Positions 19,714 through 23,772 of a stretch of 41,126 nt of DNA are shown in pieces. Numbering within the stretch: position 1 is the first letter of the stretch; every line of letters starts with the position of its first letter. The stretch lies in the NCBI GenBank assembly GCA_013519935.1, contig JACDUA010000038.1, forward strand, positions 1-41,126, in the 5' to 3' direction. A program made the position numbers and the translations under genes. This stretch comes from Ectothiorhodospiraceae bacterium WFHF3C12. GTDB lineage: Bacteria > Pseudomonadota > Gammaproteobacteria > Nitrococcales > Nitrococcaceae. A model generated the notes under the pieces. It did not search any database and had not been told where the DNA came from. It saw only the letters and a program-made list of their open reading frames with translations.

Positions 19714-20688
19714 ATGATCGAGCAAACTGTAAGGCGTAAGAAGGTCACTCCGAGCGCTATACAGCGCAGAAAGTGGAAGGGTGTACCAATTACCGTTGTG
19801 TCAGCGTACGACTACCCGGTCGCTAAATGGGCTGACGAGGCTGGCATTGATATCATTTTTGTCAGTGACGCACTCGCGATGGTGGGGCTTGGGCGGGACA
19901 ATGTTTTCTCAGTATCCGTGGACGAGATGGTGTATCACACCAAGGCCGTTTGCTCCGGTTCTGGCAAGAGCCTGGTTTTGACGGCAATGCCATTGTTGTC
20001 GTATCGAGATCCCGAGCAAGCGCTTTTGAATGCTGGGCGCCTGATTCAAGAGGGTGGAGCTCACGCTGTAGAAATAGAGGGCGGGAAGGAGAACGTTCCT
20101 GTTATCGAGGCGCTGACGGCGCAGGGCATTCCTGTTTTAGCGCATATAGGGTTATCAAAGAAGGATGCCTTGGCGAAGGGCGAATATCGCATAAAGGGGA
20201 GGGCGCCGGGGGACGCGATGCACGTTATTGAGGAGGCTCGTGCGGTGGAGCGAGCGGGTGCATTCGCGGTGGCGATGGAATGTGTGACGGATCGGATTGC
20301 TGAGACGGTGACTAAGATCGTTAGCGTGCCGACCATAGGAATTGGATCCGGTAAGTATTGCGACGGTCAGGCGCTTGTGACCCAGGATATGCTGGGCATG
20401 TTCGACAAGTTCTGCCCCCGTTTCGTGCGTCGATACGCAGAGATCAGTGCCTTGGCAGTTGATAGCCTGACTGAATTTCGTAGGGACGTTGAGGGTGGGG
20501 CATTCCCGCAAACGGAGCATTCCACTCAGATGAATGAGGATACTTTGCGGAGACTGTTGGAGACGAAGGGCGTGGACGAAGAGTTGCTCGAGGAAAGCAC
20601 GCCGAAAGGGAGGCGGGGGAAACGTAGAGAGAAGGCCTTGAGCGGATATGTCGACGCGCTGGTCAAGCAGTTGGATCAAGCTGGTTAG
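19714..20688 (+). CDS. panB: PanB-family (ketopantoate hydroxymethyltransferase-like) protein 1
   Basis: 324 aa, longer than the about 264-aa E. coli enzyme because of a charged C-terminal tail. The TIM-barrel fold of PanB is clear: VSAYDYPVAK, VSDALAMVG, YHTKAV, VEIEGG, AHIGL, MECVTD, IGIGSGKYCDGQ and DMLGMF. Canonical PanB moves a hydroxymethyl group from methylene-THF to ketoisovalerate. Compared with E. coli numbering, first metal ligand Asp45 (here 52), Glu114 (122), His136 (144) and catalytic Glu181 (189) are kept, but metal ligand Asp84 is Ala91 (LTAMPLL instead of ADLPFM). This and its place in a TRAP operon argue for a catabolic or altered reaction rather than pantothenate synthesis. 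Ribosome site AGGAGG lies before ATG 19714. Confidence 0.88.
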   Translation: MIEQTVRRKKVTPSAIQRRKWKGVPITVVSAYDYPVAKWADEAGIDIIFVSDALAMVGLGRDNVFSVSVDEMVYHTKAVCSGSGKSLVLTAMPLLSYRDPEQALLNAGRLIQEGGAHAVEIEGGKENVPVIEALTAQGIPVLAHIGLSKKDALAKGEYRIKGRAPGDAMHVIEEARAVERAGAFAVAMECVTDRIAETVTKIVSVPTIGIGSGKYCDGQALVTQDMLGMFDKFCPRFVRRYAEISALAVDSLTEFRRDVEGGAFPQTEHSTQMNEDTLRRLLETKGVDEELLEESTPKGRRGKRREKALSGYVDALVKQLDQAG

Positions 20689-20720
20689 CTGGTGTTCTGC
20701 TGGCTACGGTTGGGTCGAAA

Positions 20721-20741
20721 CACCTCGTGTAATCAGAGGTG
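20721..20741 (+). terminator. Small hairpin after PanB-like gene 1
   Basis: CACCTC (20721-20726) and GAGGTG (20736-20741) with a 9-base loop, about 30 bases after the stop. Weak: no clear T-run follows. It is the only terminator-like structure between this operon and the IS21 debris. Confidence 0.35.
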
Positions 20742-20822
20742 GGTATCTTGAGCCGAGGGCGTGGGTCAGCCACCAAGTGTGGAACCCATGCCCCCGTTTT
20801 CAGTAGCACTCCGATCTAATGT

Positions 20823-21668
20823 CGGGGAAGTGGACAGAAGAACAGATTGGCCTGTTTCTTCTTCAGCGGCAGGTAGCCGATCTCGTCGAGGATGAGCAGC
20901 CGCGGGCGAGGATCGCACGCCTGAGGTACTGATCGAAGCGGGCTTCGCGCCGGGCCTTTTCCAGTTGCAGGACCAGGTCGGCGGTGGTGATGAAGCGCAC
21001 CTTGTAGCCGCGCTCGGCAGGCAGCGCGGCCTCTTCGCCAAGGACCTGTTCGAGGAAGTCGATGTAGGAGCGCTTCTCCTTGGCCGCCTCATCGGCGAGC
21101 GTGGCGTAGTGGTTGGCCACGGCAGTGAGCGAGAGCTCGGCGCCGAGCCGGTCGACAGGCCGCTCGCCGGTGGTGCCGTGGATCCGGACGTTGGCCACGG
21201 CGTTGCACCAGTGGGTCGCCTCGGCGTTGAGCTCATCCAGCCCGGGGACACGATCCTCCAGCGCCAGCCCGGTCACCAGCGGATGGAAGAAGTTGTGCGC
21301 GATGTAGTGGATCACCCGCTCGACCTTGCCCTTGGTCTGCGGACGATAGGGCCGGCACAGCCGCGGCCGATAGCCGAGTTCGGCGGCGAGCATCCAGATC
21401 GTGTCGTGGAAGCGGCGGCGCCCGCGGCCGTAGGCATCGCGCTGGGTGACCACCGTCTTCATGTTGTCGTAGAGCACCTCCCGCGGTACGCCGTCGAAGG
21501 CGGCGAACATCCGCCGGTGGCAAGCCACCAGGACCTCGGAGCGGGTGGAGTCGACGTACTCCAGGTACAGCTGCCGGCTGTAGCCGAGCACCCCGGCGAA
21601 GGCGTAGACGCGCTTGCCACCGAGCCGGTACTCGCCCCGGTCCATCTGCACCTGATGCCCTGGGACCG
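20823..21668 (-). pseudogene. IS21-family istA/istB fused remnant
   Basis: Read leftwards from 21668 this is the middle and end of an IstA transposase: [72 protein letters not shown]. It runs after RPVDRLGAE straight into IstB-type sequence ([20 protein letters not shown]). A deletion then joins this to [16 protein letters not shown] and, after a frameshift, to the Walker B segment [21 protein letters not shown], where it ends. IstA C-terminus, IstB start and IstB C-terminus are missing. Confidence 0.8.
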
Positions 21669-22050: not shown

Positions 22051-22124
22051 ACGCCGGCCAGCGGGGCTCGTCACCCCCGAGGACCGTCGATCACCGGACA
22101 TTTTGGTCCGGGGAAAACCGGACA

Positions 22125-22353
22125 AACTCAGCCGGCGTTGACATCGCGCGCGAAGCGCTCGGCGACCCCCTCGCCGTGAGTGCCGTGGATGCGTTGATCG
22201 GCCACCCCGGCTAGCCAGTGCTCCAGGCAGCGGTTGAGGCGCTAGAGGCTGTCGACGCGCCGATGGAGAGCGAAGAAGTGATCCTTGACGTAGCCGACCA
22301 TCCGCCAGAAACTCGACGACCTGCTCTTCGCTGTAGCCCTTCTTCATGCCCAA
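22125..22353 (-). pseudogene. IS21-type istA fragment (degenerate)
   Basis: On the minus strand: KKGYSEEQVVEFL, a frame change, YVKDHFFALHRRVDSL, a stop, then RLNRCLEHWLAGVADQRIHG and GVAERFARDVNAG followed by a stop. The middle resembles the late part of IstA (WL-GVADQR-H-T-GE-V-ERFARE). IS21-end-like sequence (CCGGACATTTTGGTCCGG) lies just below, at about 22096. Third separate IS21 scrap in this stretch. Confidence 0.55.
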
Positions 22354-22875
22354 TCTGCTGATTTTCAGTGATTGGTTTCCAGATCGCCGTGCTTCTCAAT
22401 CTCACGGGCGCGGCATTGTGCCCCCCGGCCCGCACAAAAAAGGCAGCATTGGCATAGAGCCCATTGCATCGATCATTAGAACTCATCACCAGCTCGCTTA
22501 GAAAAGGCTCGCCTGGAGCCCCGATCCATCAGCTAGGGTATCGCAACAAGCTAAGGCACAAACTACAGCCTTGGTAGCGGAGCCCTAAGGTCCAGCGGAA
22601 AATCCGTCCCCTATTAGTCACCAGCATCAAGCTCGGCCGCCAGTGTTGTGTAGCAACCATTCAATCTGGTCACTGGCGAACTGAGCGATGTGGTGTCACG
22701 TGGCTCAATACGACTTACAGCTCATCACTGCAGTCCGCTGTATTGGTGAGTTCCGAATAGTCGGTCTACCACGGTGAGTTAATAGATCCTACGGTGGCGG
22801 TCCAACAAACACTCTGGTGCAGCGGCGAGGACGGTCCCGTGGTGGCATCGGAGCATCGAGAGAGGAGCAAGTGCG
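22354..22875. other. Intergenic, 522 bp, upstream of PanB-like gene 2
   Basis: No gene seen. Must hold the promoter of the PanB-like gene 2. Blocks TCATCACTGCAGTC (22722-22735) and GGTGAGTTCCGA (22745-22756) repeat a pair found upstream of the TRAP operon. Ribosome site GAGAGAGGAG lies before ATG 22876. Confidence 0.45.
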
Positions 22876-23772
22876 ATGGCTGCTGGTGAAACGAAGCGAA
22901 AGAAAGTGACGGTTAAGGATATTCTGGACAAGAAAAAACGCGGCGAACAAATTATCTCCGTTGGAGTATATGACGCGCCGATGGCGACGATCGCCGACGA
23001 AGTCGGCTTCGACATGCTCATCAATGGAAATGCTGGACCAATGTCATTGCTAGCTCATAAGACGCCCATGACTGTCCGCTATGAAGAACAGCTTATTTTG
23101 ACTCAAGCTGTTAGTCGAGTAGCTAAGTACGGAATGGTTGTTGGCCATCTGCCCTTCATGACCTATCACGCTTCCGTGGAGGAGGGTATCCGAAGCGCCG
23201 CCCGCATGGTTTCCGAAGGTGGCGCAGATGCCGTCAAATGTGAAGGCAACAGGTATACCGCCAAAGTTGTACAGGAGATCGTCAGGGCAGGAGTCCCTGT
23301 CATGGGTCATATTGGCATGCAAGCTTCCCGAAAGCTTGAGCAAAGCGGTTATGGGTTCAAAGGGAAGACGGCCGATGAGGCTGCAAAGATTGTCGACGAT
23401 GCGTGGGCTTTCGTGGATGCAGGTGCATTTTCCTTTATTCTTGAATATGTGCCCGTCGAGGTTACGGAGTACCTGGCTGAAACACTTCCCGTGCCAGTGA
23501 TCAGTGTCGGCGCCGGCCCATCAAAGGACGGTATCTATCTAATTGGCGGTGACGCAGTAGGATATAGTGCATTTCCGAGGCCAAAAAACGAGGCTAGCTT
23601 CGTCGATGTCCGGCCTATAATTAAGGAGGGCCTAGAAGCATATAAGAGCCAAGTGCAGGATAAGACCTATCCTGGTCCCGAGTTCACCAAGCATATGGAC
23701 GAACGAGAGGCGGATAAATTTCATGAAATGATAGGAAAAAATGGCGAATTTGGGATTGGTACTGCGTCATAG
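22876..23772 (+). CDS. PanB-family protein 2, divergent (metal site altered)
   Basis: 298 aa, PanB/ICL-type TIM barrel recognisable from VYDAPMATIADEVGFDMLING, VGHLPFMTYHASVEEG, ADAVKCEGN, PVMGHIGMQ, ILEYVPVEV and VPVISVGAGPSKDG. Relative to E. coli PanB, Glu114 (here 123), His136 (145) and catalytic Glu181 (190) remain. The Asp45 loop GDSLGM has become NGNAGPM and metal ligand Asp84 is His91. So two of three canonical Mg ligands are changed. It is not a close copy of PanB-like protein 1 and may act with it, bind a different metal, or have another reaction on a folate-linked one-carbon unit. Good ribosome site. Flanked by IS21 and IS3 debris. Confidence 0.85.
   Translation: MAAGETKRKKVTVKDILDKKKRGEQIISVGVYDAPMATIADEVGFDMLINGNAGPMSLLAHKTPMTVRYEEQLILTQAVSRVAKYGMVVGHLPFMTYHASVEEGIRSAARMVSEGGADAVKCEGNRYTAKVVQEIVRAGVPVMGHIGMQASRKLEQSGYGFKGKTADEAAKIVDDAWAFVDAGAFSFILEYVPVEVTEYLAETLPVPVISVGAGPSKDGIYLIGGDAVGYSAFPRPKNEASFVDVRPIIKEGLEAYKSQVQDKTYPGPEFTKHMDEREADKFHEMIGKNGEFGIGTAS

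Follow-up and report, generated by a model that had tools for sequence, protein, structure and literature searches.

The described enzyme closest to the two proteins discussed here is the ketopantoate hydroxymethyltransferase PanB of E. coli (PF02548; structure 1M3U), whose Mg ligands we take to be D45, D84 and E114—1m3u does hold D, D and E at these positions—and whose K112 presumably counts with them as a metal/substrate residue. A PanB-family gene has also been described outside pantothenate synthesis: according to the gene descriptions in PMC4433239, the msm region of Filomicrobium carries a 3-methyl-2-oxobutanoate hydroxymethyltransferase-like gene by TauE, GcvT and msm, which Table 1 of that paper notes as C1-moiety transfer. 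Fae (PF08714) has a role close to the one proposed below, the loading of formaldehyde on a pterin C1 carrier; it differs by its protein family and by its carrier, H4MPT instead of the THF proposed here. The spontaneous condensation of formaldehyde with THF is too slow for growth; alone it would give a doubling time of ~24 days. The deletion of panB and ltaE left the formaldehyde-dependent growth of E. coli unchanged (PMC7073904).

The window, i.e. the whole stretch analysed, is contig JACDUA010000038.1 (41,126 nt) of Ectothiorhodospiraceae bacterium WFHF3C12. It encodes two PanB-like proteins, named here PanB1 and PanB2, among the following features:

16509..17753, plus strand: DctP, TRAP transporter solute-binding protein (PF03480, 102.8 bits)
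17816..18388, plus strand: DctQ, TRAP small permease (PF04290)
18421..19698, plus strand: DctM, TRAP large permease (PF06808; TIGR00786 over cut-off)
19714..20688, plus strand: PanB1, PanB-like protein, intact ORF (PF02548)
20766..22353 (ends approximate), no strand assigned: IS21-type insertion remnant between the PanB genes, rve and IstB (PF00665, PF01695)
22876..23772, plus strand: PanB2, PanB-like protein, intact ORF (PF02548)
24084..24395, minus strand: integrase fragment, IS3-type by eye (PF13683, 98 bits)
24395..25099, minus strand: Crp/Fnr-type regulator (PF00027, PF13545)
27220..28842, plus strand: MTHFR-like protein with a C-terminal DUF5981 domain (PF02219, PF12225)
28888..29760, plus strand: PurU, formyltetrahydrofolate deformylase (TIGR00655 over cut-off)
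31483..33351, plus strand: SulP sulfate-permease family transporter (PF00916, 331 bits; TIGR00815 just under cut-off)
33369..33962, plus strand: FolK (HPPK), folate biosynthesis or repair (TIGR01498 over cut-off, PF01288)

PanB1 and PanB2 are variants of the known PanB family. PF02548 matches them over the whole domain, with 302.8 and 238.1 bits respectively (cut-off 28.7), and both structure models adopt the PanB fold: Z 33.5 over 248 aa for PanB2 (pLDDT 83) and Z 32.3 over 223 aa for PanB1 (pLDDT 69, low in residues 224–324), the next-best family reaching Z ~19. Compared with E. coli PanB, they keep the fold, the length and the equivalents of E114, H136 and E181; on the other hand D84 is lost in both, D45 in PanB2, and K112 is replaced by Glu in PanB1. 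Precisely, positions 45, 84, 112, 114, 136 and 181 of the E. coli protein correspond to D52, A91, E120, E122, H144 and E189 in PanB1, and to N52, H91, K121, E123, H145 and E190 in PanB2, so that neither the D/A/E/E of PanB1 nor the N/H/K/E of PanB2 at 45/84/112/114 matches the housekeeping pattern D/D/K/E. The first-pass annotation, made from the DNA alone, had pointed to Ala91 in PanB1, to His91 and the loop NGNAGPM in PanB2, to the retention of the catalytic Glu181 and His136 equivalents in both, to the divergence of the pair and to an extra charged tail on PanB1; all of this holds, with 28% identity between the two, and the K112 change comes in addition. The tail starts at residue 271 and counts 54 residues, 11 K/R and 11 D/E, in a protein of 324 aa versus 285–300 in eight orthologue rows. 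A changed metal, also put forward in that annotation, is only compatible with the substitutions.

These correspondences come from 62 aligned PanB-family rows in E. coli numbering; three truncated copies (L069, L070, L071) and 27 duplicate genes were left out of the count, and PF02548 fragments in G420 (n = 2) and G435 (n = 1) lie outside it. That a gap might have shifted the aspartates while leaving them in the metal site, a possibility raised at the outset, was looked for and is excluded at sites 45, 84 and 112, because in all 62 rows the alignment is ungapped for 6 columns around each of them and intermediates anchor the D45 loop, from VSDTGGM in the outgroup to VGNAGPM in L012 and NGNAGPM in the window. 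Around site 114 a gap occurs within 6 columns in 61/62 rows; the motif E-G is still aligned in the rows printed.

The substitutions are fixed across clades. PanB1 and its relatives read D[S/A/T]EE at 45/84/112/114 (9/9 rows), PanB2 and its close relatives NHKE (17/17), and the supported PanB2 clade has lost both D45 and D84 in all its 19 rows, including two divergent ones of a single Afipia genome (L079; NTQH and PHKD) on long branches. DDKE is the rule in the housekeeping-type clade (18/18) and in the nearest outgroup clade (11/11), which, unlike the window proteins, keeps both aspartates; L089 (G472), beyond the 62 rows, is of outgroup type at these residues. Three further PanB-like proteins (L062, L064, L084), which fall in neither the PanB1 nor the PanB2 clade, carry S, C or A at 84 together with Q at 114; L076 and L077 read DDKD.

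Could both proteins nevertheless be ordinary ketopantoate hydroxymethyltransferases, tolerating changed ligands and kept as extra copies for CoA supply? The full-length PF02548 matches and the fold scores of Z 32–33.5 would fit. PanB1 moreover passes the panB equivalog threshold, scoring over the cut-offs of both NCBIfam panB models, TIGR00222 (274.8, cut-off 207.55) and NF001452 (295.9, cut-off 272), and could thus still be a ketopantoate synthase; PanB2 fails both (193.9 and 221). PanB also uses several metals: Mn, Zn, Co, Ni and Ca all support the ordinary enzyme, though at lower rates (PMC7770189). We regard this explanation as improbable: a canonical panB is present elsewhere in the genome, which also rules out PanB1 or PanB2 as its sole panB, the four residues D45, D84, K112 and E114 do not vary in the housekeeping-type rows, and beside the catabolic copies no further pantothenate gene was recognised among the annotated neighbours of the loci examined. 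A changed reaction, as first suggested, is instead supported by the clade-fixed substitutions, the separate clades, the canonical PanB elsewhere and the gene context, which comprises folate C1 genes, the methanesulfonate loci of the outgroup and the microcompartment operons described below; such C1 surroundings set PanB1 and PanB2 apart from ordinary PanB.

In 11/11 genomes PanB2 is accompanied by a second, non-housekeeping PanB-like protein bearing D45, which is PanB1 in nine genomes and an outgroup protein in two. The PanB1 and PanB2 genes adjoin in all nine PanB1 loci, divergent in eight and on the same strand in the window. This constancy is compatible with a heteromer or with two enzymes acting in succession. 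In the first case, PanB1 and PanB2 would form one mixed oligomer, with an active site shared by both subunits or with one of them as a non-catalytic scaffold, and the PanB decamer does have its active sites at subunit interfaces (PMC7770189). We find such an oligomer rather unlikely, as the two proteins are only 28% identical, the companion lies ~13 kb from PanB2 in the L012 genome and on a different contig in the L013 genome, and neither looks dead, each having retained E181 and H136.

In the other eight genomes, PanB1 heads a bacterial microcompartment (BMC) operon that is divergent from PanB2 and an MTHFR. BMC-H, CcmP-like BMC-T, EutN-type BMC-P and EutE-like AldDh are found in 8/8 of these loci, MTHFR is full in seven and truncated in one, FolB occurs in 7/8, ThyA in 6/8 and a sulfatase-family gene in 5/8, and PabB/PabC adjoin 4/8 (extra flanks being covered for 5/8). 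The shell set and the EutE-like AldDh recall metabolosome-type BMCs with a CoA-acylating aldehyde dehydrogenase (PMC8217296), to which these loci add PanB1, PanB2, MTHFR and folate-synthesis genes. The word “hydroxymethyltransferase” is absent from the main texts of PMC8217296 and PMC4207490, whose supplements may list the locus type; a literature search combining bacterial microcompartment and ketopantoate hydroxymethyltransferase found nothing, and among the matches listed by a wider one PMC8636102 and PMC12857756 treat panB as ordinary pantothenate synthesis or have no panB in the text. The PanB1/PanB2 family marks a microcompartment locus whose cargo the BMC main texts searched do not describe.

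The window itself is without microcompartment genes. Its genome has a different BMC on contig C107, which we rejected as being of the same kind: its AldDh is at 42% identity, it comes with a malate/lactate-type dehydrogenase, and no PF02548 match lies on that contig. The TRAP, PanB1, PanB2, Crp, MTHFR, PurU, SulP and FolK genes have a GC of 0.49–0.55 against 0.62 in the flanks; this lower GC from TRAP to FolK supports a single horizontally acquired island, broken by insertion sequences (the IS21-type remnant is at 0.65). The missing shell and these insertions suggest that the module may be decaying. A plasmid-borne system is not supported: a search of 72,556 plasmid records gave nothing for PanB2 (E 1e-50) and 103 matches for PanB1 (E 1e-60), all in Enterococcus and all below 60% identity, the 20 listed being at 44%. 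Neither is a phage origin of PanB1, whose profile had no relative in viral contigs. Distant Crp-like genes (22–24%) also occur in the L012 and L013 loci.

The outgroup clade is encoded in methanesulfonate-oxidation and folate C1 loci. Its PanB lies within ~7 kb of a genuine MsmA (26-residue Rieske spacer) in 5/11 genomes—~60 bp upstream in two of them—and adjoins TauE and GCV_T in 8/11, i.e. the neighbours of the Filomicrobium gene. Judged on the gene descriptions of the latter (PMC4433239), the window proteins differ, being derived and placed with TRAP, MTHFR and PurU, without msmA. MsmA occurs together with PanB2 in G428 (L012), and a relative with a 17-residue spacer does so in G429 (L013); an MsmA of at least 50% identity was not found in the microcompartment genomes or the window genome. 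Of the 20 genomes searched for Fae (the window's own, eight with microcompartments and 11 of the outgroup, mostly drafts), 19 yielded none; the exception is the outgroup genome G055, which has it besides outgroup PanB.

At about even confidence, we propose that PanB1 and PanB2 are catabolic enzymes of THF-linked C1 transfer whose active site has been rebuilt, which no longer make ketopantoate and which reside in an acquired island. The folate linkage is seen in the MTHFR, PurU and FolK genes of the window and in the MTHFR, FolB and ThyA genes of the microcompartment loci; the window MTHFR-like protein, 55% identical to its L009 orthologue, is the only DUF5981 match of the genome. What the enzymes do, in which direction, from which donor and with which metal, we infer as follows. 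One-carbon units would pass to THF from a compound taken up by the cell, probably an organosulfur compound, and the MTHFR-like enzyme, a dehydrogenase/cyclohydrolase presumably encoded elsewhere, and PurU would then carry the C1 unit to formate. The old PanB half-reaction, in which methylene-THF is formed or broken, may have been kept with the conserved Glu181 and His136, while the keto-acid and metal end would have been rebuilt, PanB2 having Asn/His for Asp45/Asp84, and PanB1 having Ser/Ala/Thr at 84 and Glu for Lys112. The outgroup beside methanesulfonate monooxygenase suggests, by analogy, that the likely donor is formaldehyde or its sulfite adduct hydroxymethanesulfonate; against this stand the borrowing of the formaldehyde logic from an outgroup keeping both aspartates, the negative search for MsmA at 50% identity or more in the window and microcompartment genomes, and the unchanged growth of E. 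coli deleted for panB and ltaE. For the window itself, TRAP and SulP give a weak indication of a sulfur substrate. DctP has 57 PDB matches with mixed ligands, isethionate- and DHPS-binding DctP being included without being the best, and an ABC protein matches taurine, sulfonate and nitrate binders, its SsuA-family score being below cut-off.

With MTHFR as partner, the chemistry may be at the methyl level and not at the methylene level. PanB1 and PanB2 could then be THF methyltransferases, passing a methyl from a methyl sulfate- or methyl-sulfur-type donor to THF, with MTHFR oxidising methyl-THF to methylene-THF. Among the enzymes that accompany PanB2, MTHFR is indeed the most constant (in the window, in full form in 7/8 microcompartment loci, and in L012 at 38%), PurU follows it in the window, and the sulfatase-family genes of the microcompartment loci and SulP would agree with such donors. 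We hold this to be unlikely, however: PanB chemistry is the transfer of a hydroxymethyl, not of a methyl, an MTHFR (39%) also lies with outgroup PanB beside FTHFS in G055, and the usual THF demethylases are GCV_T-family proteins. The four GCV_T matches of the window's genome are all on other contigs.

Bacteria without Fae pose the question of how formaldehyde is brought into their THF pool, and a PanB-family branch, encoded next to methanesulfonate monooxygenase and THF enzymes in genomes that yielded no Fae, offers a concrete candidate. We tentatively suggest, as a possible though doubtful extension, that this branch is the missing THF-dependent formaldehyde-activating enzyme of sulfonate methylotrophs, PanB1 and PanB2 being derived members with a rebuilt metal site, mostly in a C1 microcompartment. 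The branch would load THF with formaldehyde, or with the C1 unit of hydroxymethanesulfonate, sulfite then leaving. In PanB1 and PanB2 the rebuilt metal site would be Asn/His/Glu, possibly a His-Glu-His transition-metal site, and the two would work within an undescribed C1 microcompartment in most hosts and from a shell-less acquired island in the host of the window. From the score of PanB1, automatic annotation would name it panB and its function would be missed. The window pair shows to what extent the metal site has been rebuilt among the relatives of this branch, and a THF-dependent formaldehyde-activating role, if true, would be notable.

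The two PanB-like genes of the window are the following:

19714-20688: PanB1, 324 aa, intact ORF, PF02548 over the full length
22876-23772: PanB2, 298 aa, intact ORF, PF02548 over the full length

Both proteins are variants of the known PanB family. Structure comparison of the predicted models gives a PanB fold for PanB2 (best Z 33.5, 248 aligned, rmsd 2.4; good pLDDT of 83) and for PanB1 (best Z 32.3, 223 aligned, rmsd 2.0; moderate pLDDT of 69, residues 224-324 being poor), the next family by fold being for both PEP mutase/isocitrate lyase at Z ~19. We take the Mg ligands of E. 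coli PanB to be D45, D84 and E114. Aligned to E. coli numbering, PanB1 displays D45, A84, E112, E114, H136 and E181, and PanB2 N45, H84, K112, E114, H136 and E181; the altered aspartate positions reported by the first-pass annotation (A84 in PanB1, N45 and H84 in PanB2) are thus real, and the equivalents of H136 and E181 are indeed present in both. A displacement of the aspartates by a gap is ruled out, since across all 62 aligned rows the 6 columns to either side of sites 45, 84 and 112 are free of gaps. The change of Lys112 to Glu in PanB1 had been overlooked; this new acid, near the lost one, could be a relocated ligand.

Among the 62 PanB-family rows of the alignment and tree, the pattern at sites 45/84/112/114 is DDKE in 29: 18 of housekeeping type (including E. 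coli and the window genome's own canonical PanB) and 11 of the clade nearest PanB2, hereafter the outgroup. NHKE occurs in 17 rows (PanB2 and close relatives), D[S/A/T]EE in 9 (PanB1 and relatives; site 84 is S in 6, A in 2, T in 1) and DDKD in 2, with five further patterns in one row apiece. As these counts split by clade, the residue changes are fixed in two clades rather than sporadic. The maximum likelihood tree, midpoint-rooted and with a program warning of long branches meeting, supports a PanB1 clade of 9 rows at 100/100, the union of PanB2 and the outgroup (30 rows) at 100/100, PanB2 itself (19 rows) at 100/99, the outgroup (11 rows, each keeping both aspartates) at 99/98 and the housekeeping type (18 rows) at 94/88. 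Two long-branched Afipia rows of the PanB2 clade have lost both aspartates too. Read from this midpoint root, PanB2 would have lost its two aspartates after splitting from the outgroup, which keeps them.

The two Afipia rows come from a single locus (L079, G424:C213). These divergent PanB2-like genes, which read N/T/Q/H in one and P/H/K/D in the other at sites 45/84/112/114, flank an ABC transporter (by eye) on both sides and are accompanied by a TauE exporter. A further PanB-like branch (L084, G434:C85), with Ala or Cys at 84 and Gln at 114, likely has another non-PanB function; its neighbours are a TRAP transporter and a phytanoyl-CoA dioxygenase-like gene (both by eye).

Contig C82 of the window's genome encodes a third PanB that has the canonical residue at every site, and the same stretch of C82 also contains a PanC-like ORF (by eye); PanB1 and PanB2 are not the housekeeping enzyme. 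Of the consequences first proposed for the substitutions, a changed reaction appears likely, on the basis of the clade-fixed substitutions, the separate canonical PanB and the C1/folate gene context; a changed metal and a PanB1-PanB2 heteromer are each possible.

PanB2 matches at E 1e-60 were found in 3/369 genomes of the class, 2/398 of the phylum and 1/95 relatives. The window's genome is one match in each sample, and the remainder (G055, G214, G472) are outgroup-clade proteins, 39–44% identical to PanB2; PanB2 proper was found in no other genome of these samples, nor among 72,556 plasmid records. PanB1 at E 1e-72 matched 1 of 398 phylum genomes, the window's own. A pattern-based scan at one genome per species, hence a lower bound, gave at least 16 loci, 10 with PanB2 (L004-L013) and 6 with the outgroup. 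The window shares PanB1, PanB2 and MTHFR with the microcompartment loci described below and also has FolK; compared with those loci, it adds PurU and SulP, has a TRAP transporter in place of the ABC one and lacks shell genes. The island genes of the window have a GC of 0.49–0.55 vs 0.62 in the flanks, and insertion-sequence remnants (GC 0.63–0.65) lie among and beside them. From base composition and rarity we infer an acquired, partly broken island. The island MTHFR bears a DUF5981 C-terminal domain (28420-28659) seen nowhere else in this genome, and the window also encodes, at 9728-11715, an ExaC-type acetaldehyde dehydrogenase (NF050026 over cut-off), then a DUF779 protein. Elsewhere the genome has:

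Contig C107, 23788-34849 (L023, L024): a second, different microcompartment locus

Its aldehyde dehydrogenase is 42% identical to the PanB-locus one, and it also encodes a malate/lactate-type dehydrogenase, a zinc alcohol dehydrogenase, a PucR-type regulator and a PEP-utiliser mobile domain protein.

In eight outside genomes (L004-L011; Lacisediminimonas, Burkholderiaceae, two Afipia, Legionellaceae, Bradyrhizobium, Castellaniella, Bradyrhizobiaceae) a first operon begins with PanB1 and continues with BMC-H, CcmP-like BMC-T, EutN-type BMC-P and an EutE-like aldehyde dehydrogenase that scores under the named cut-offs; small proteins, one of which matches EutQ weakly, and FolB follow. The operon facing away from it holds PanB2, in some loci a second PanB2 (6/8 within the locus), and MTHFR. 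Shell and aldehyde dehydrogenase genes are present in all eight, MTHFR is full in seven and truncated in L011, and FolB (7/8), ThyA (6/8) and a sulfatase family (5/8) recur; PurU occurs in L005 only. PabB/PabC adjoin four loci, extra flanks having covered five. All eight are accompanied by an ABC binding protein of sulfonate/taurine type that scores under its family cut-off; the L007 copy is partial, and in two cases the gene sits next to the locus rather than in it. A second sulfatase-family gene (L045:4700-6994, G420:C193), 42% identical to the microcompartment-locus one, shares its contig with biotin-carboxylase and carrier genes (by eye).

The outgroup comprises 12 genes in 11 of the genomes examined (two in G434). 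TauE accompanies them in 10/11, TauE with GCV_T in 8/11 (G055, G214, G428, G429, G430, G431, G432, G435), and FolD or FTHFS in 7/11. Genuine MsmA, defined by a 26-residue Rieske spacer in PMC4433239, lies on the same contig within ~7 kb of outgroup PanB in G428, G433, G434, G214 and G472; in loci L017 and L018 the PanB gene ends ~60 bp upstream of msmA. G429-G432 have an MsmA relative with a 17-residue spacer, whose substrate is less sure; G435 gave no strong MsmA match, and in G055 the search covered 19 kb around its PanB. One contig of G428 unites MsmA, outgroup PanB, FolD, MTHFR, an ABC transporter set and PanB2. The PanB-msm association is not wholly new, because Table 1 of PMC4433239 lists such a gene in the Filomicrobium msm region, labelled 'C1-moiety transfer'. 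The portions of the literature searched hold no mention of the residue changes, clades or microcompartment link of PanB1/PanB2.

According to PMC4433239, MSA oxidation yields formaldehyde and sulfite. The uncatalysed condensation of formaldehyde with THF is described as too slow for growth in PMC7073904, which suggests that PanB might catalyse it promiscuously in E. coli, reports unchanged growth on deletion of panB plus ltaE, and cites a PanB variant condensing free formaldehyde with ketoisovalerate. In a marine MSA enrichment (PMC5068391), FolD and PurU functions were gained, which the authors took to indicate a possible route through THF; broader THF categories decreased. A search for Fae in 20 genomes, for the most part drafts or metagenome assemblies (the window's own, 8 microcompartment and 11 outgroup genomes), came up empty in 19. 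Given the MsmA linkage, the slow uncatalysed condensation and this outcome for Fae, the MsmA-associated PanB-family protein is a good candidate for an enzyme that would load the C1 unit onto THF.

Several observations count against PanB1 and PanB2 being THF-linked C1-transfer enzymes no longer engaged in ketopantoate synthesis: ordinary PanB uses several metals (PMC7770189), PanB1 still scores as panB in NCBIfam, Fae occurs alongside outgroup PanB in G055, and the pair may lie in a decaying island. Close MsmA was found neither in the window genome nor in the microcompartment genomes. The dedicated FolK, FolB and Pab genes of the loci may be there because PanB can cleave methylene-THF in a side reaction (PMC4814558). 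Belonging to the same family and having folate neighbours, PanB1 and PanB2 would likewise load a C1 unit onto THF, whatever its donor; to judge from MTHFR in the loci, that donor could also be one at the methyl level.
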